Assembly (NCBI RefSeq): GCF_000379025.1
Contig: NZ_KB900617.1
Span: forward strand, 369,547 to 433,546
Reading direction: 5' to 3'
DNA: 64,000 nt
From: Orenia marismortui DSM 5156
GTDB taxonomy: Bacteria; Bacillota; Halanaerobiia; Halobacteroidales; Halobacteroidaceae
A program made the translations under genes and the position numbers. The notes below the pieces were generated by a model. It saw nothing but the letters and a program-made list of their open reading frames with translations, ran no database searches and was not told the DNA's origin. How positions within the stretch are numbered: the stretch's first letter is position 1; every line of letters starts with the position of its first letter. This document shows, in pieces, positions 6,316 to 29,172 of the stretch.

Positions 6316-7081
6316 CTATCCTAACTTCACTACTTACTAGTTCTTCCTGTCTCACCTTAATATCTTAATCCCTATATTCATAGCACTCCTGAGCACGTCT
6401 CTAAGCTCTCACCAATCGCACCTCTCAGTTTACCATTACTTAGGTTATGGTGTTCTCTAGGTTATCCATACTTTACAGTTATGATTTCCTGTTTGTAATT
6501 CTACTAGAACCCACTATAGTACTAGTGTTTAAACCACTCAAAATTAAGATATCATTAGTAATCAAATCTTAAACTTCAATAACCTAGATATCCTTCGCTA
6601 TAATCAACTTTCGTTGATTTTTTTTCTCACTACTATGATATCTTCTGAACTCTAATATATCATCACTCTGGCTTTCCTGTTGGAGTTATACCATCACTTA
6701 TCTCTATAGATTTCTATAAAGAATTATATTAGAGATTCCCTCGGTCAATTACGTAAACCCTACAATCATTCCGACCCTAATCACACCTAGTTTTCTAACA
6801 TGGGCACTTCCAGTTACACGTATTTACCAGCGCTACCTGTCTCTCCTTTGTACAGAGCCCCAAGCTAACATTGGACTTCCCCGTTTTTATGGCGGGTCGC
6901 CAAAGCTAAATGCCACCTCTGGTTCACATATTGTTCCGGACTGATTGCTCATCTCAAACTCTTCAGATTCTACCTCACGGTAGACACCCTGCTACTGTTG
7001 ATTTCACACACCGTACTGGCGAAAACAGCATGGATAGGATTTTCACCTACTGTTTACTAAATCTACGAGGCACACATAAAA

Positions 7082-7111
7082 AAACAGAAAGGTTATATAA
7101 CCTTTCTGTTT
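7082..7111 (-). terminator. hup terminator and intron target site
   Basis: Perfect 30-bp palindrome (AACAGAAAGG/CCTTTCTGTT) 14 bp after the hup stop, continued on the minus strand by TTTTAT, after which the group II intron begins. Confidence 0.85.
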
Positions 7112-7125
7112 AATAATATAGCTAA

Positions 7126-7437
7126 CTATTTTACATTTACAGTATCTTTAAAGCTTTTACCAGCCTTGAAAGCAGGTACTGTACGTGCAGGAATCTGCAT
7201 CTCTTCACCAGTTTGAGGGTTACGTCCAGTTCTAGCTGGTCTATCACGAACCTCAAAACTACCGAAACCAATTAATTGAATCTTTGATCTTTCATCAGCA
7301 GGCTTCTTAGCTTCAGCTTCTAAATTTTCAGCAATTACTTCTAATAAACCATTTAATGCTGCTTTAGAATCCTTTTTTGTAATTCCTGTTTTTTCAGCAA
7401 TCTGATCAACCAAATCTGTTTTTGTAATATTCGCCAT
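7126..7437 (-). CDS. hup: DNA-binding protein HU
   Basis: A 103-residue histone-like dimeric DNA-bending protein. The conserved arm region is intact ([20 protein letters not shown], then [17 protein letters not shown]). It is longer than usual (about 90-92 residues) because of an insertion [11 protein letters not shown] between helix 2 and the first beta strand. A GAGG ribosome site precedes the ATG. Monocistronic, with its own terminator and an extended -10 promoter. A chromosome-compaction role is certain for the family. Confidence 0.97.
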
Positions 7438-7594: not shown

Positions 7595-9073
7595 TTATAA
7601 TATTATACAAATTAAGCCTCCACTACCTTCATTAATTATCTTTTGCAAAGTATCTTGTAACTTTTCTTGAGCATTAACAGGCATTCTATATAACTTCTGA
7701 TTAATTCCATCTTTAACTAAATCATGAAGTGAACGCCCTAAAAAATCACTCTGCCAAATAGCATCTGGATTGGCTTCAAACTCAGTAGCGAAAAATTCAA
7801 TCAATTCCTCACATTGCTTTTCTGTTCCTACTACTGGAGAAACCTCTGTATTAATATCAGCCCTAATCATATGAATAGATGGAGCACTAGCTCTTAATTT
7901 AACACCAAAATGACCGCCTCGTTTAATTAACTCCGGCTCATCAAAAAGTAGATCTTCTAATTTGGGAGTAACTATACCATAACCAGTTTCATTTACTTGC
8001 TGTAACGCATCTGCTATTTGATCATACTCTTTTTTTACTACACTTAATTCCTTAACTAAATTAAATAAACTGTGCTCTCCTTTAATTTCTAAATCAGTCA
8101 TCTCTTCTAAAATGTTGTAGAAAAGATCATCCTTGAGATCAAAAGTTAAACTTGCTACCCCACTACCTAAATCCATATCTGAAATAAATATATCCCCTGC
8201 ATTATCAGAATCAGATAATTTCTCAACTAAATGATTGACATCTCTTAAAGTATATATATCTTGGATTGAATCATTAATTGTTTGATTAAGATCTTTACTT
8301 AACCAATGTTCTTTCTCTAACTCATCTATCCAAATTGGCAAATCAAGGTTTACCTCTTTTAATGGAAATTCATATAAGACTTCTTTTAATAAATTATTAA
8401 TATCTTCTGAACTTAAATTTAAGCAATCTACTGGAACTACCTTTTTATTGTACTTTTCTTCTAACTCTTTAGCCAGCTCTTGAGTCTCTGGACTATGAGG
8501 ATGGGCTGAGTTTAAAGCAACAATGTAAGGCTTATCTAACTCATTTAACTCTTTAATAACCCTTTCCTCTGCATCTGTATAGCTTTCACGGGATAAATCA
8601 GTAATACTTCCATCACTTGTTATTACCAATCCTATAGTTGAATGATCTTGAACTACTTTTTGCGTGCCAATTTCAGCAGCCTTTTGAAATGGAATTGCCT
8701 CTTCAAACCAAGGTGTTGTTACCATCCTAGGACCTTCTTCTTCTTCATATCCTAAGGCCCCATCTACTCTATAACCTACACAATCTACTAATCTAATCTT
8801 GAAATCCACATTTTCATCCAAGCTTATCTCAGTAGCTTGATTAGGTACAAATTTAGGTTCAGTAGTCATTATTGTCTTTCCTTCACCACTTTGTGGCAGT
8901 TCATCTCTAGTTCTTTCTTTGTCATACTCATCATCCATATTAGGTAAGACCAATAAGTCCATAAATTTCTTAATAAATGTTGACTTACCTGTTCTAACTG
9001 GTCCAACTACTCCTACATAAATATCACCATTTGTTCTAGTGGCAATATCCTGATAAATATTAAACCCTTCCAT
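7595..9073 (-). CDS. spoIVA: Stage IV sporulation protein A (spore coat morphogenetic ATPase)
   Basis: A 492-residue protein of the expected length. Walker A GPVRTGKST (residues 24-32) and the TRAFAC-like GTPase-derived fold with DCVGYRVDGALGYEE identify SpoIVA, which hydrolyses ATP to polymerise on the forespore surface as coat basement layer. The C-terminal end GGLICIIL matches the family's membrane/SpoVM-contact region. An AGGAGG-type ribosome site precedes the ATG. Expression in the mother cell under sigma E is expected from the family; I could not identify a convincing sigma E promoter. Proof of sporulation ability in this lineage. Confidence 0.97.
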   Translation of the reverse strand: MEGFNIYQDIATRTNGDIYVGVVGPVRTGKSTFIKKFMDLLVLPNMDDEYDKERTRDELPQSGEGKTIMTTEPKFVPNQATEISLDENVDFKIRLVDCVGYRVDGALGYEEEEGPRMVTTPWFEEAIPFQKAAEIGTQKVVQDHSTIGLVITSDGSITDLSRESYTDAEERVIKELNELDKPYIVALNSAHPHSPETQELAKELEEKYNKKVVPVDCLNLSSEDINNLLKEVLYEFPLKEVNLDLPIWIDELEKEHWLSKDLNQTINDSIQDIYTLRDVNHLVEKLSDSDNAGDIFISDMDLGSGVASLTFDLKDDLFYNILEEMTDLEIKGEHSLFNLVKELSVVKKEYDQIADALQQVNETGYGIVTPKLEDLLFDEPELIKRGGHFGVKLRASAPSIHMIRADINTEVSPVVGTEKQCEELIEFFATEFEANPDAIWQSDFLGRSLHDLVKDGINQKLYRMPVNAQEKLQDTLQKIINEGSGGLICIIL

Positions 9074-9451
9074 TTTTCACCCTCCTTTATAGTATTTCAA
9101 CGAATATAGACTAACCAACTATGAAGATTAACTATTTGGCTATAATAAGTTATAAGATTCATAATTAACCTTCAAACCAAAATAATAAACCCACTAATTT
9201 ATTTGAACCTCCTTTATCTCTAAAGCAAATATCATTATATATATATGACCTGTATCTGAGATTATTCCATATAGCTATAAATAGGGAGATTTCAATGGAA
9301 CATTAAACAAGTAATTAATTTCTATTTGCTTCTTTAATGTTACTAATAAATTTTATTAACTAAAGATTCTTTAAAAAATCAAATATGACTTACTACTTAA
9401 ATAATATGTATTATAGTATAAATAAAATAACTAATTAGATCACAAAAAATA
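9074..9451. other. Intergenic region upstream of spoIVA
   Basis: About 380 bp of AT-rich DNA with no credible ORF. It must contain the spoIVA promoter. A long imperfect hairpin at 9299-9341 (AACATTAAA...TTTAATGTT, 12 bp with one mismatch) has no T tail and is unexplained. Confidence 0.5.
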
Positions 9452-22204: not shown

Positions 22205-23437
22205 ATAAATTGCAATATAAAATGCACGGTTTTTTATTACTCAATACCTCATAAATTTTAAGCTGCCTTTAACTGTTCTTCAAATATATAATTTGCATTC
22301 TTAAACCCAAACATTTTTCGTGGATAATTATTTATCCATCGCTCAATTCTTTTAACTTCATTTCTGCTAATATTCTTAAAGCTACTTCCTTTTGGTAAAA
22401 ACCTTCTAATCATTTTATTTAAATTCTCATTACTACCTCTTTGCCAAGAACAATAAGCATCAGCATAATATTGACTAGTTCTTGAGATATCACTTCCTGT
22501 AAAGGAAGTTTCTATCCCTTCATAATCATAGAATTCTTTACCATTATCTGTAGTTATAGTTTTAAATAAGTCTCTAAATTTTCTAACTCCTATTCTTCTT
22601 TCTACGCGATCTAATCCTTTTATTACAGATTCTTGAGTCTTATTAGGTATTAGTTCTATTATTTCTTTGCGACTATATCTCTCTGTTAAAACTAATAAAA
22701 AGGGCTCATCTTTACCTTTCCTACCCTCTACTAAGTCCATTTCCCAATGACCTATTTCTGACCTTTTATCAGCTTCCTTAGGCCTATCTGATATCTTTCT
22801 TCCCTCTTTTCTCCTTTTTGTTGATTCTTTTTCTTTCTGTTTAGATTTATTAGTCTTTTTATATCTACCATAAACCAAATCTTCTCTATCTATAAACAGA
22901 ATGCCTTTATCTATATAATTATATATCGTCTTCCAATGTATTTTAATTTCAAACCCATCATCCTCTTTAATCATCTCTGCAATTACCTCTGGAGAATAAT
23001 TTCCTTTTATTTTTTCTTCTATGAATTCAGCTAATTGATGATCTTTTCCTATTTTAATCTTAGCTCCTTTAGCAGTCGCATTGTTATCATATAAGTTTTG
23101 AGCTATATCAGCATCGTATTCTATTCTTTTAGTGTAATCTGAATTTAATAATACAAGCTTTCCCCTTTCAATTTCTCGACTTATTGTCGTCCTATGCCTC
23201 CCTAACTCTCTTGCTATTGCTGTCTTCGATTTGTTTTGTATATTATATAAATGTTCTATTATCTTTCTCTCTTCCCACTTTAAATGTTTTCCTTTTCTAC
23301 TTTTTGTGTTATAATTATTTTGGCACATATTTAATACCTCCAATGTTTGCTTTGGTCAGTTAACATTATATATGAGGTATTAATGTGTGTCATTTTTTAT
23401 TTTTTGAACTATCCGTGCATTTAATTATACAATGCAC
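22205..23437 (-). mobile_element. IS30-family insertion sequence with 16-bp direct repeats
   Basis: A 1233-bp element. Its ends at 22205-22229 and 23413-23437 are 25-bp imperfect inverted repeats (18 of 25 identical, sharing AAATGCACGG). Exactly abutting them are two identical 16-bp copies of CTTTAAAGATACTGTT (22189-22204, 23438-23453), read as target duplication. A second shared subterminal motif, AATACCTCATA, lies inside both ends. It separates the Rad50-like operon from rny. Confidence 0.85.
22258..23328 (-). CDS. IS30-family transposase
   Basis: About 356 residues from the ATG at 23328. An N-terminal helix-turn-helix (RELGRHRTTISREIERG) precedes the DDE domain: GHWEMDLVEG (first Asp), TTDNGKEF (second Asp) and WQRGSNENLNKMIR (Glu), the IS30 signature spacing. 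No frameshift or missing catalytic residue is seen, so the enzyme may be active. Confidence 0.95.
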   Translation of the reverse strand: MCQNNYNTKSRKGKHLKWEERKIIEHLYNIQNKSKTAIARELGRHRTTISREIERGKLVLLNSDYTKRIEYDADIAQNLYDNNATAKGAKIKIGKDHQLAEFIEEKIKGNYSPEVIAEMIKEDDGFEIKIHWKTIYNYIDKGILFIDREDLVYGRYKKTNKSKQKEKESTKRRKEGRKISDRPKEADKRSEIGHWEMDLVEGRKGKDEPFLLVLTERYSRKEIIELIPNKTQESVIKGLDRVERRIGVRKFRDLFKTITTDNGKEFYDYEGIETSFTGSDISRTSQYYADAYCSWQRGSNENLNKMIRRFLPKGSSFKNISRNEVKRIERWINNYPRKMFGFKNANYIFEEQLKAA

Positions 23438-23496: not shown

Positions 23497-24180
23497 TTAA
23501 TAAATAATTTCTGTTGATATTTGACTTTTGGCTTCTTTTAGCTCTACTCTAAAAGCTTTATCTGCTACCTCACTTAAGTGTTGTTGATGAGTTACAACTA
23601 TAATCTGTCGGCCAAACATTTCATTAACTTGCTTTAAAAATCTTGTCACCTTTACTATATACTCTTCACTAACATGTTTAGCAGGCTCATCCAATATAAC
23701 TGGACCATTGATCTTAGGCTTCTGATGACTTTCTAAAATAGCAATTCTTAATGCTAAAGAAACAACATCAACTACACCTCCACCTCGAGCATCCTGAGGT
23801 TCATTCTTAACTCTATACTTGCCCTGTTGGGAGACAACATAAAAATCAGCCCAAGGTTGTCCACCACGATTACGAATTTCAATTTCAAAACTAAAGTTTT
23901 CTCCAAAAACATACTGTAAAAAATTTGTTACCAAAGATTCTATCTGTTGTCTTGACTGCTCTCTAGCAAATTCAGATGTTTCATGGAAGAGTATATTTAC
24001 TTGTTCCAAAAGTTCAATCTCTGATTTACATTTGAGTAGTTCTTTCTCTTTCTTCTCTATATCCTCTTCTAATTGTTCTTTTCTTCCTTTCTGCTGATTA
24101 TAGCTACTTTTTAAGTGATTTATATTAGCTTCTAATTCTTTAATCAACATATTTGGATTATTTAAATTAGATTCTAACAT
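23497..24180 (-). CDS. Rad50/SbcC-like ATPase, C-terminal half (signature and Walker B)
   Basis: A 227-residue protein that looks like the C-terminal lobe of an SMC-type ATPase made as a separate protein. Residues about 10-85 are coiled coil. The head follows: ARGGGVVDVVSLALRIA (131-147) in the place of the ABC signature, Walker B PVILDEP (160-166) and the switch histidine VVTHQQH. No Walker A is present; that is in the protein encoded at 24446-26038. Its ATG is 1 bp after the stop of the small coiled-coil gene. Function would need both halves plus the nuclease at 26038-27018. Confidence 0.8.
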   Translation of the reverse strand: MLESNLNNPNMLIKELEANINHLKSSYNQQKGRKEQLEEDIEKKEKELLKCKSEIELLEQVNILFHETSEFAREQSRQQIESLVTNFLQYVFGENFSFEIEIRNRGGQPWADFYVVSQQGKYRVKNEPQDARGGGVVDVVSLALRIAILESHQKPKINGPVILDEPAKHVSEEYIVKVTRFLKQVNEMFGRQIIVVTHQQHLSEVADKAFRVELKEAKSQISTEIIY

Positions 24181-24181
24181 T

Positions 24182-24442
24182 CTATTTCACTCTACCTTCT
24201 AAGACATCTTTATCTGGTAATAAATCTCGTGCCTGGTTAATTAAACTAGTTAATTCTTCTTCTAATTTATTAATCTCCTGCTCTAAATCTTCAGGCTCAA
24301 CTCCATACTTCTTAATTTCCTTTAGTAACTCTTCTCTTTCTTGCTTTAGATGCTCCATTCTTGTTTCTGCTTGAACTTTCATCTTATTAGCCTTATCTAA
24401 CTCTTTTTTTATTTCATCAATCTCTTTTTTATATTTACTCAT
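24182..24442 (-). CDS. Small coiled-coil protein of the Rad50-like operon
   Basis: An 86-residue highly charged coiled-coil protein (MSKYKKEIDEIKKELDKANK...), broken near the middle by YGVEPEDL. It lies between the Walker A and Walker B halves of a split SMC-type ATPase, with gaps of 3 bp and 1 bp. It reads like a piece of the returning coiled-coil arm made as its own protein. It is in the frame of the upstream gene, one codon after its stop, but has its own AAAGGGGG ribosome site, so separate translation is likely. Confidence 0.7.
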   Translation of the reverse strand: MSKYKKEIDEIKKELDKANKMKVQAETRMEHLKQEREELLKEIKKYGVEPEDLEQEINKLEEELTSLINQARDLLPDKDVLEGRVK

Positions 24443-24445
24443 TAT

Positions 24446-26038
24446 TTATTCCCCCTTTAATTCTTTTATAATTTTATCAACAGTATGATTATCAATTGAT
24501 TCAAAACAGGTTGGACATTTACCTATCTTCTTTAAGACTTGACTATATTGAGCAGCCAAAGTTTCTATCTTCTTATCTAATTTCTTCATATAGACTTTTC
24601 CTTTATTAATACTTTCTTTATTCTTATTCAGCCCTACTTGAACCTCTTTTAGATCAGATAACTGATTATATCTCTTTTCTAATGACTGTTGAATATTAAC
24701 TATCTGATCATCAGATGGTAGTTTATTCAAAATGATTTCCTTCTTATTGATACTCTTTTCTAAGTCTTCAATTTTATTGTTAATATAAATTATTTCTTCT
24801 ATCTTCTTTTCCAATTCAGGCAGCTTTTCTTTTAAGATAAATTTAACATCTTTAACCCCTGAGGTTTGATCTAATATTTTTCCATTAATAAGAATATCAT
24901 CTTTAATCTTATTCCATTTTATATCAAATCCATTTAACTTTGAAAAATTATCTTCTATCTTTTTGGCCTGTGAAAAATAATCTAATCCGTGATCAACCTT
25001 ATTCAATTCAGTTAAAATATTCTTTCCTAGATTAATTCTAGATTTATTATCTTTATATTTATTTAATAATTTTATTCCCAGATCTAATTTTTGATATCTA
25101 TTATTTAAATCTTTGTAAAGAAGATTAATTTGATCTAAATCTGATAATTGATCAATTACATCTTCTAGCTTTACAAATTTCTTCCTTATTACTTCTTCTT
25201 TCTTTACTAATTCAACTATATTTTCAAATTTAATACTTCTATCATCTAATCTCTGATATATATCTTCTATCTTTTCTAAATCATTCAATTGATTTAATAA
25301 ATCACTGTATTTATTCATTCTGTCATCACTTTGATTTAATTTCTCTTGTAACGAAATTAAGCTCTCTAATTTTTGATTATATGTTCTGAGGTTATCTAAA
25401 ATAGTCTCCTTAGATTTAATATCTTTTTTTAAATCATCCAAATTATCAAATTCTTTTAATTTCTCTCGATTAATTTCTAGCTCTTCTTTTAATTGTTTAT
25501 TCCTCATATTTAATCTACTAATATCAGTCTTAGTTCTACGAATTGCAGAATCTACAATATGAACATTGATTAAGCGGCCTAGAGTTTTAGCTCTTACTGA
25601 TCCACTATCGGTTAATAAAAAAGCTCCTTCTAGTTGATAATCAATATTAAGTGTAGTTTCATTATCTGTATCTAGATCAATCTTTGGCATCCCATGTACC
25701 TTTATTATTTCTTCAGGAACTCCACTTCCTACCCGCTCAAATACATGTTCTTCACCTTCAGGATTAACTAATATATATCTATTCTTGCTTGGAGTTCTCT
25801 TTCTAATAATCTTAAATTTATTATCTAACTCTATAGCAACTTGACAATCACTTTGATTATGACGAATGAAGTCAGTACCACGGGGTTCATTATATAAAAC
25901 CCAGCGTAAAGCTCTAATAATTGCTGATTTTCCTTGATCAGAAGGTCCAGTAATTACATTCAATCCCTTATCAAACTCTAATATTGTATGTTCATGAGAT
26001 TGAAAATTTATTATCTCCATTCTCTCGATTATTCTCAT
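24446..26038 (-). CDS. Rad50/SbcC-like ATPase, N-terminal half with zinc hook
   Basis: A 530-residue protein: an N-terminal ATPase lobe (MRIIERMEIINFQSHE, Walker A GPSDQGKS at 31-38, RALRWVLYNEPRG), then some 300 residues of coiled coil, ending in a CxxC hook (CPTC at 508-511) 19 residues before the stop. Thus the protein ends at the apex of a Rad50-type arm, and the other half of the ATPase is a separate gene. The start codon overlaps the stop of the Mre11-like gene by 1 bp (TAATG). Predicted to form a DNA-end-processing complex; SbcC of other bacteria is a single chain of about 1000 residues. Confidence 0.85.
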   Translation of the reverse strand: MRIIERMEIINFQSHEHTILEFDKGLNVITGPSDQGKSAIIRALRWVLYNEPRGTDFIRHNQSDCQVAIELDNKFKIIRKRTPSKNRYILVNPEGEEHVFERVGSGVPEEIIKVHGMPKIDLDTDNETTLNIDYQLEGAFLLTDSGSVRAKTLGRLINVHIVDSAIRRTKTDISRLNMRNKQLKEELEINREKLKEFDNLDDLKKDIKSKETILDNLRTYNQKLESLISLQEKLNQSDDRMNKYSDLLNQLNDLEKIEDIYQRLDDRSIKFENIVELVKKEEVIRKKFVKLEDVIDQLSDLDQINLLYKDLNNRYQKLDLGIKLLNKYKDNKSRINLGKNILTELNKVDHGLDYFSQAKKIEDNFSKLNGFDIKWNKIKDDILINGKILDQTSGVKDVKFILKEKLPELEKKIEEIIYINNKIEDLEKSINKKEIILNKLPSDDQIVNIQQSLEKRYNQLSDLKEVQVGLNKNKESINKGKVYMKKLDKKIETLAAQYSQVLKKIGKCPTCFESIDNHTVDKIIKELKGE

Positions 26039-27018
26039 TAAGCTATCTCACCACCTTCTCCTAACTCTTCTTGTACTACAGCTAATCGATCAAGAGCTTC
26101 TTTAGTTACCTCTTGATTTATCCCCTTATTAGTGGCTATCTTATCTAAAATAGCATTTATACTAAAGACTTCAAAACTATCATTAGCCTTAATCTCTCTG
26201 ATGAACTCAGATAACTTTTTCTCTCTAAACTTTTGCCCTTCAATCGCACTACGATCTAAAATCTCTTTACCAGGTTTGGCAGATTTCAATTTTCTTAAAC
26301 TTATTTTTACTTCATCCTTTAATTCTACAATAGCTACTTGTGGAGTTCTCTTTATCTCCTTAAGATCAGCACTTGATCTAACTAAGGAGCCTGGATTCAA
26401 AAAATACTTCCCCTTAAACTTCTTTACCCCAAATCCGATATGGTAATGACCAGCTACTGTTATATCTGCTTCTGTATCTACATCTTCAATTAATGTATAG
26501 CCGGATTCAAAAAATGGTTTTTCTAAGAGCATTCCATGAATTAAATGCAATGCATAATTAGCTTTATCATCCTTTTTAACTGTATAAGCAGTGGTATTTT
26601 TCTCATCAATACTGTAATCAAAATTTCTCCCTGATAATTGTAATACTAAGCCATTATCATCCTTGAGAAAGATCGGTTCTTCTGGAACTAAATTAACTAT
26701 TCCAGAAGTGATTAGTATTCCTAACATTGTCCTACTTAAAGTTTCAGGATTATGACCATAAAGGTCATGATTCCCAGCAACTATATATATTGGTTTGGGA
26801 TAAGTTCTTAACACCTTAATAAAATCATTTACTACTGATGGAGCAGTATCTGGACGGTCAAATAGATCACCACCATGTAGGATATAATCTACATCTTCTT
26901 CTATGGCAATCTCTTTTACCTCTCTTAACTTATTTAGTAAAGTTTCTTTAAAATCATCTAGCCTTCTACTAGGTGTTGTTCCTCTAATATGAGTATCTGT
27001 TAAAACTAGTAATTTCAC
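26038..27018 (-). CDS. Mre11/SbcD-like metallophosphoesterase
   Basis: A 326-residue calcineurin-type nuclease. Metal-binding motifs are in order: DTH (8-10), HGGDLFDRPDT, AGNHDLYGH, HGML and GHYHIGF. A capping domain and a Lys/Glu-rich tail follow that could contact the ATPase arms. GTG start at 27018 with GAGGTGA upstream. It is the first of four tightly packed genes downstream of recX, and pairs with the Rad50-like halves that follow. Confidence 0.88.
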   Translation of the reverse strand: MKLLVLTDTHIRGTTPSRRLDDFKETLLNKLREVKEIAIEEDVDYILHGGDLFDRPDTAPSVVNDFIKVLRTYPKPIYIVAGNHDLYGHNPETLSRTMLGILITSGIVNLVPEEPIFLKDDNGLVLQLSGRNFDYSIDEKNTTAYTVKKDDKANYALHLIHGMLLEKPFFESGYTLIEDVDTEADITVAGHYHIGFGVKKFKGKYFLNPGSLVRSSADLKEIKRTPQVAIVELKDEVKISLRKLKSAKPGKEILDRSAIEGQKFREKKLSEFIREIKANDSFEVFSINAILDKIATNKGINQEVTKEALDRLAVVQEELGEGGEIA

Positions 27019-27061: not shown

Positions 27062-27697
27062 CTAATTATTAATCAAATCTTTCAAAACTAGATTAATAAT
27101 ATCAAAAGAAAAACCTTTTCTTTGCAGAAATTTAGATAACTTTCCTCTTTTCTTCCAATCATCTAACTTCCGATATCTTTTTACCTTCTTAGCTGCTAGC
27201 TTTTGAGCAATCTTATATTGTAGATCTGAATTATATTCTCGATCAAGCTCTTCCTCTATAATTCTTTGCTTTACTCCTTTTTCTTTAAGCTGCATTTTAA
27301 TTACCCAAGGGCCATATCTTCTAGTGATTCGATCTTTAATCCAAGCATTTGCAAATTCTCTGTCATCTATATAATCTAAACGTTCTAAAATTCTAATAAC
27401 CTGTTCAATAATAAATTCATCAAAACCTTTCTTAGCCAACCTATCCTTCATCTCTTTATAACTTCTTTGACGGTATGATAATAGATTAAAAGCTGCTTTC
27501 TTGGCTTGAATAAAATCTTCTTGATCTAGAATATGTTCTAATATATCTTCAGTTAATTTATGTCCTTTCTCTAAGTTAAACTTGTAAACTATTTCAGCAT
27601 CAACTCCAACTAGAAATTGACCATCTAGGAATATAGAACAACGACCTTGGTTATTCTTTTGGGCTTCAATTTTTGTAATTTGGCCAATATAACTCAT
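27062..27697 (-). CDS. recX: RecX, regulator of RecA
   Basis: A 211-residue protein with the three-helix RecX repeats (AAFNLLSYRQRSYKEMKDRL, RILERLDYIDDREFANAWI, YGPWVIKMQLKEKGV). RecX caps or disassembles RecA filaments. It follows recA as usual, but a repeat element lies between them. GGTGG ribosome site. Confidence 0.93.
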   Translation of the reverse strand: MSYIGQITKIEAQKNNQGRCSIFLDGQFLVGVDAEIVYKFNLEKGHKLTEDILEHILDQEDFIQAKKAAFNLLSYRQRSYKEMKDRLAKKGFDEFIIEQVIRILERLDYIDDREFANAWIKDRITRRYGPWVIKMQLKEKGVKQRIIEEELDREYNSDLQYKIAQKLAAKKVKRYRKLDDWKKRGKLSKFLQRKGFSFDIINLVLKDLINN

Positions 27698-28046: not shown

Positions 28047-29105
28047 TTAAGCAGACTCTTTATCTTTTGTCTTTTTATTCTTTTTTTCTTCTTTCTCCTC
28101 TTTAACCTCTTCTTCAATCATTCCCAATTCCACTTTAACTTTATGTTCAATCTCTTTTAATAATTCTGGCATTTCTATCAAATATTCTTTAAAATTATCT
28201 CTTCCCTGTTGTCTGTGATCATCTCCATAGGAATACCAAGATCCTGAACGTTCAACTATATCATACTCTACAGCCATATCTAGAATACACCCAGCTTGTG
28301 AAATTCCTGTTCCATACATAATATCAAATTCTGCTGTTTTGAAAGGAGCAGCCACCTTATTCTTCACAACTTTCACCTTAGTTCTATTACCTTGATAATC
28401 ATCGCCATCTTTAATTGTTTGTCTTCTTCTAACATCTAATCTAACTGAAGAATAAAATTTCAATGCTCGTCCACCAGAAGTAGTTTCTGGATTTCCAAAC
28501 ATTACTCCAACCTTCTCACGAATCTGATTAATAAAGACACAAGTACACTTAGACTTACTTAATACACCAGATAACTTTCTCATAGCCTGAGACATTAAAC
28601 GTGCTTGTAATCCAACATGAGCATCGCCCATTTCTCCCTCAATTTCTGCCTTTGGTACTAATGCAGCTACCGAGTCAATGACTATTAAATCTACTGCTCC
28701 ACTTCTTGCTAAAGCTTCACAAATTTCTAAAGCATCTTCTCCTGTATTAGGTTGTGATACCAACAACTCATCAATATTTACTCCTAGGTTTTGAGCATAT
28801 TTAGGGTCTAATGCATGCTCTGCATCAATAAAAGCAGCTACTCCACCTTCTTTTTGCACCTCAGCAATCATATGTAGAGTTACAGTAGTTTTACCAGAAC
28901 TTTCTGGTCCATAAACTTCAATAATTCTTCCTTTGGGAACTCCTCCTACTCCCAAAGCTACATCTAAAGAAAGGGCTCCTGTAGAAATAGCTTCTACATC
29001 CATTGCTTTAGCTTCACCTAGCTTCATAATAGATCCTTTACCAAATTCCTTCTCAATCTGATTTAATGTTCTTTGTAATGCCTTCTTCTTTTCTTCTAAT
29101 GACAT
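28047..29105 (-). CDS. recA: RecA recombinase
   Basis: About 352 residues. The ATP site is [21 protein letters not shown] (partly VIDSVAAL here) and [19 protein letters not shown] mark the loops that bind DNA. The C-terminal tail is acidic and lysine-rich as usual. I chose the ATG at 29105: GAGGGAG is 8 bp upstream, whereas an in-frame GTG at 29114 overlaps it. No clear LexA box of the Firmicute type (CGAACnnnnGTTCG) is visible upstream. Confidence 0.98.
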
Positions 29106-29172
29106 TTTCTTCACTCCCTCTATAAATATTGCCTGTTAACAGAGCCTAAAATTAAGTACAAATTATTAAGTT

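Follow-up and report, generated by a model that had tools for sequence, protein, structure and literature searches.

Organization of the locus

The window (64,000 nucleotides of the Orenia marismortui DSM 5156 genome) contains recA, recX, and four genes denoted here PE, A, B, and C, in a single minus-strand run recA–recX–PE–A–B–C:

28047..29114, minus strand: recA, upstream neighbour (in this position in about 57 of the 65 bacterial split loci)
27062..27697, minus strand: recX, upstream neighbour of PE (assigned by order and homology across relatives)
26038..27018, minus strand: PE, Mre11/SbcD-type phosphoesterase, 326 aa
24446..26038, minus strand: A, Rad50 N-lobe chain, 530 aa
24182..24442, minus strand: B, small helical/coiled-coil protein, 86 aa
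23497..24180, minus strand: C, Rad50 C-lobe chain, 227 aa

PE and A overlap by 1 base (TAATG), the gaps between A and B and between B and C are 3 nt and 1 nt, respectively, and a purine-rich, ribosome-site-like stretch is found at the start of each of the four genes. The locus has the coordinates and lengths given in the original prediction, which described four packed genes downstream of recA–recX, each with its own ribosome site.

An IS30-type element with approximately 21-nt imperfect inverted ends (22209–23433), encoding a transposase with the HTH_38 and rve domains (22258–23343, minus strand), sits between C and rny; it fills a gap that is only about 230 bp long in two congeneric genomes.

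The phosphoesterase and the ATPase head

The profile of PE matches Mre11/SbcD chains (~1e-7), and the protein itself matches Pfam Metallophos (6.8e-15). All eight putative metal-ligand residues (D8, H10, D51, N83, H84, H161, H191, H193) are invariant in 13 relatives, one phage included. These data agree with the proposed assignment to the Mre11/SbcD type and with the metal-ligand set of SbcCD/Mre11–Rad50 nucleases, the score of PE (39.3 bits) being below the curated sbcd cut-off (77.65).

SbcC and Rad50, the latter a motor of DNA-break repair, are normally one chain. Here, the two lobes of the ATPase head had been predicted to reside in different proteins, Walker A in A and Walker B with the signature in C, and both the motifs and the Rad50 matches follow this division. 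A contains the Walker A motif GPSDQGKS and Q135, and matches AAA_23 (9e-18); GPSDxGK and Q135 are invariant in A, in line with the Walker A and Q-loop of the Rad50 N-lobe. In the comparison with PDB, the A profile matches the Rad50 N-lobe (3qkr_A, 1.2e-11) and the Rad50 zinc hook structures 1l8d and 6zff (2e-4), and the C profile matches the Rad50 C-lobe (3qkr_B, 5e-9), 3qkr_A and 3qkr_B being the two Rad50 lobes expressed separately. C consists of an N-terminal arm helix (approximately residues 9–92) followed by RGGG (132–135), Walker B with the catalytic glutamate E165 (VILDEP), and H198, and hence has the Walker B, glutamate, and His switch of the Rad50 C-lobe. In place of the Rad50 signature LSGGE, C has the aligned RGGG-V, with R132, G133, G134, and G135 invariant in a 14-row alignment; due to this replacement, ATP hydrolysis may differ from that of Rad50. 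Among the matches listed, none was to the curated sbcC model TIGR00618, for either A or C.

AlphaFold2 models point in the same direction. Residues 70–225 of C superpose on residues 738–882 of Rad50 from P. furiosus (VIA Z 13.2), and residues 1–128 of A superpose on residues 2–133 of Rad50 (VIA Z 12.6), the model of A being weak (mean pLDDT 66, low at the P-loop and linker). The covered Rad50 regions do not overlap and form complementary halves of the head.

Natural fusions provide another view of the same question. In every complete split locus the lobes are encoded by separate genes; they are joined only in one genome, G091 (locus L156, 3152–5254, minus strand), where a 700-aa chain combines PE (6–325), A (334–502), and C (509–682) without the arm and without CxxC, and B is not found beside it. 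As PE, A, and C are joined while the arm, hook, and B are all missing, this fusion, although a single case, argues that PE, A, and C would act as one head and that B would belong with the arm. Together, the lobe folds and this fusion point to one ATPase head, as the original prediction implied. Two plasmid loci (L191 and L193) encode PE–A fusions of 801 and 841 aa that end 20–22 aa past CPxC and are followed by separate B and C.

The hook and the 47-residue-repeat arm

The predicted CxxC zinc hook motif is present in A as CPTC at residues 508–511 of 530. It is followed by a 19-aa tail, and so the split is not exactly at the hook apex, as had been suggested, but just past it. CPxC lies at the extreme C-terminus in 101 out of 101 A proteins, picked for having A, B, and C, its distance from the end being 16–26 aa in bacteria and 5–13 aa in viral proteins; the motif is missing from the distant phage relative Magritte. 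A CxxC hook at the arm tip is a feature of SbcCD/Mre11–Rad50, and the motif in A would have the same zinc-binding role.

Most viral A chains (L120–L147) have at least two extra Cys/His residues within 13 aa after CPxC, the mean number of such residues being 1.8 in viral vs. 0.6 in bacterial A. These could form a self-contained zinc site with no partner required.

The arm of A (approximately residues 165–505) is composed of tandem helical units of about 47 residues. Self-alignment of 38 non-redundant A arms yields a sharp peak at shift 47 (Z 38) and a second peak at 94 (Z 26), and viral arms alone yield Z 35 at shift 47; the periodicity was not seen in 19 one-chain SbcC arms treated in the same way (Z 0.6 for the outgoing and −0.7 for the return strand). 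According to the phase analysis, glycine and proline are enriched in one stretch per unit. The hook positions cluster near 410, 460, and 507, that is, approximately one unit apart, and A varies by 47-residue steps while the lengths of B and C are nearly constant. The tandem 47-residue units in the arm of A, absent from SbcC arms, and the stepwise hook position are new features described here.

In SbcCD/Mre11–Rad50, the two strands of the arm are of similar length (~320 vs. ~345 aa in our SbcC controls). In the split set they are not: the arm of A comprises ~295 aa in bacteria and ~323 aa in viruses, and the A tail, B, and the C helix combined provide ~183 and ~171 aa, respectively. The return arm had been described as much shorter than the outgoing one and made of two pieces; the first part is evident from these lengths, and the second depends on B, which would be one of the pieces. 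As the return-strand material is far shorter than the arm of A, an ordinary two-stranded arm is impossible with one copy of each chain, and either multiple copies of B would be present or the A arm would be partly folded onto itself. The unequal strands and the 47-residue units mean that the set is not merely Rad50 cut in three.

One possible, still tentative, reading is a Rad50 with an adjustable arm, in which an array of 47-residue units ends at the hook, the number of repeats sets the reach, and the return strand comes from separate chains. Since the latter are separate, the head-to-hook loop would never be covalently closed, creating a built-in gate absent from one-chain Rad50.

Protein B

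B was expected to be an 86-residue coiled-coil protein, and is indeed 86 aa long and predicted to be helical, with a match to phrog_18563 (7e-9). It has a conserved GVxPExL break and no cysteine pair, CxxC being found in none of 92 B proteins. That B is helical, lies between A and C wherever the split locus is complete, and has gone together with the arm and hook in the single armless fusion speaks for its place in the arm. The other reading, that B is a regulator or loader binding the head or PE, is consistent with the nearly constant length of B against the 47-aa steps of A and with the profile comparison, which gave no significant link of B to either A or C; given the location of B and its joint loss with the arm, we consider this reading rather unlikely and tentatively place B in the arm.

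Distribution and gene order

A phmmer search with C yields one strong match in each of 13 sampled genomes from the GTDB order to which the window belongs, and no comparable match in 28 genomes of the class that belong to other orders. PE–A–B–C lies between recA(–recX) and rny in 12 out of 12 relatives within the order. A relative of C is encoded by 160 stretches of the GTDB collection; among the 80 retained, about 65 have A–B–C in this order (A scored where the contig reaches), and about 57 of these have recA upstream, the synteny of the split bacterial loci being recA–(recX)–PE–A–B–C–rny. In the Bacillota sample, C is present in 48 out of 299 genomes, all 48 of which have A; A is found in 49, the additional one on a 3.4-kb contig. 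Acetivibrio-type genomes are organized differently: C is apart from PE–A–B, flanked by a folD-like gene on one side and by rny, or the position of rny, on the other (loci L153 and L154 compared with L074, L108, L052, and L088; folD named by eye from sequence).

Outside bacterial chromosomes, the order is A–B–C–PE in 27 out of 28 viral contigs. A phage copy is located near genes for a Holliday junction resolvase and a UvsW-like helicase. In Bacillus phage vB_BboS-125 (L023), the order is A, an AP2-domain gene, B, C, PE; the AP2-domain gene (6584–7156) is possibly a homing-type insertion, and PE (8424–9404) is unannotated in the record. Megaplasmids of Alkaliphilus, Geobacillus, and Paenibacillus also carry the set, with PE fused to A in the last two; in plasmid records, A is labelled as a generic AAA-ATPase or metallophosphoesterase, and B and C as hypothetical. 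In the trees, bacterial and viral sets form separate sides of one branch. Between A, C, and PE, the distances are correlated with r 0.95–0.96, and hence the set travels as a unit. Thus, a split three-protein Rad50 with an Mre11-like nuclease occurs in many Clostridia-type bacteria and in some phages and plasmids.

The presence on phages and megaplasmids, together with weak similarity to SMC-like models, LmuB among them, might suggest a defence or mobile-element system (a Lamassu- or Wadjet-like SMC ATPase) rather than housekeeping repair. We find this improbable, as bacterial copies hold one chromosomal place by recA and rny (with recA, recX, and rny as neighbours), branch apart from the viral ones, and rarely co-occur with SbcC, and all PADLOC matches look like generic ATPase or coiled-coil similarity. 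Even less probable is that stop readthrough or frameshifting yields one protein from A, B, and C: A and B of the window, as it happens, share a frame, with one stop and one codon between them, but across 61 loci the A–B and B–C frame relations take all three values, so that no conserved recoding joins the chains, and in Acetivibrio-type genomes C is located elsewhere. Finally, although SbcC and Rad50 are usually one chain, local decay or an assembly error of a normal sbcC is practically refuted by recurrence of the split, with every motif retained, in 13 out of 13 order genomes, in phages, in plasmids, and in 48 out of 299 genomes of the phylum sample.

The original prediction had regarded simple decay as unlikely, and had named a search of relatives for the split and its gene order as a check, one fused gene there indicating a local mutation. 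No ordinary fused gene is present in the relatives, and the split, with its gene order, is found across the whole GTDB order and well outside it. The suggested tie to RecA is one of gene neighbourhood, seen in most split bacterial loci and lost in Acetivibrio-type genomes, phages, and plasmids.

Relation to SbcC

SbcC was called in 120 out of 299 phylum genomes (TIGR00618, E ≤ 1e-12, a threshold at which SbcC goes undetected in some of the control genomes); a large number of genomes have neither C nor SbcC. C and one-chain SbcC co-occur in two genomes out of 299 (in one of them, SbcC is a weak 650-aa frame), compared to 19.3 expected (Fisher p 1e-9); since genomes share ancestry, the exclusion is weaker than this p value implies. 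At the family level, the overlap is 4 vs. 10.7 expected (p 0.002, assuming approximately 125 families), a value likewise inflated by relatedness. In the sampled bacteria, the split set thus nearly always replaces the ordinary one-piece version. This near-exclusion, the linkage to recA–recX, the preserved catalytic residues, and the location of the phage copy beside recombination genes are most simply explained if the set replaces SbcCD.

Comparison with known systems

The split set shares with SbcCD/Mre11–Rad50 both ATPase lobes, the CxxC hook motif, an Mre11-type nuclease with all metal ligands, and the operon partnership. It differs in that the head lobes are on separate chains, the arm is returned by separate chains, the strands are unequal, the arm is made of 47-residue repeats, RGGG replaces LSGGE, and scores are below the curated cut-offs of TIGR00618 and TIGR00619. 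The set lacks three traits that define SbcCD, namely a single chain, arms of equal length, and LSGGE, and stays below the curated cut-offs; we therefore regard it as a variant rather than as SbcCD itself.

In PHROGs, A, B, and C match the phage families 16465 (exonuclease), 18563 (unknown), and 15167 (ATPase; 6e-66 for C), respectively, which are catalogued separately, with no link between them as parts of a single complex. SbcCD is handled as an ordinary pair in a survey of recombination genes (PMC1193525). Mre11/Rad50 fusion proteins are known, namely, the Mimivirus R555 group, mostly with full Rad50 chains, showing that one machine can combine PE and Rad50 parts; that paper also notes a Bacillus phage fusion and an Anaerostipes fusion without one NTPase segment, and does not describe a split at the hook (PMC3175470). 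The latter two might be PE–A fusions of the present kind, although the fusion of phage 0305phi8-36, named in the same paper, was not recovered by tblastn with the plasmid PE–A fusion. Our search, which covered open-access papers, found no description of a split Rad50 or SbcC.

Proposed function

Taking all this into account, PE, A, B, and C very likely form a split-chain Mre11–Rad50 (SbcCD-like) DNA-end-processing complex replacing SbcCD, whose assembly and nuclease activity we infer from the features above. It resembles Mre11–Rad50 and probably works alike. The N-lobe of A and the C-lobe of C would join into one ABC ATPase head, and two A/C heads would dimerise around ATP, seated on a dimer of the PE nuclease. 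The arm of A would be a row of 47-residue helical units, whose cysteine hook at the tip could link a second complex via zinc. The arm helix of C would pair with the head-near portion of this arm, and B, in its presumed place and copy number, would pack onto it as a separate strand. ATP-gated opening would then let PE cut blocked or hairpin DNA ends, acting ahead of RecA.

The seeming lack of SbcCD in Clostridia-type genomes is in part accounted for by the split set. In the usual view of how Rad50 and SMC machines work, the arm is closed and runs from the head to a hook or hinge at its opposite end. A Rad50 from nature that is both old and widespread, and whose arm is non-continuous, tests which of these links are needed, and the split chains, together with the armless 700-aa fusion, are natural tools for studying the role of the arm and hook.
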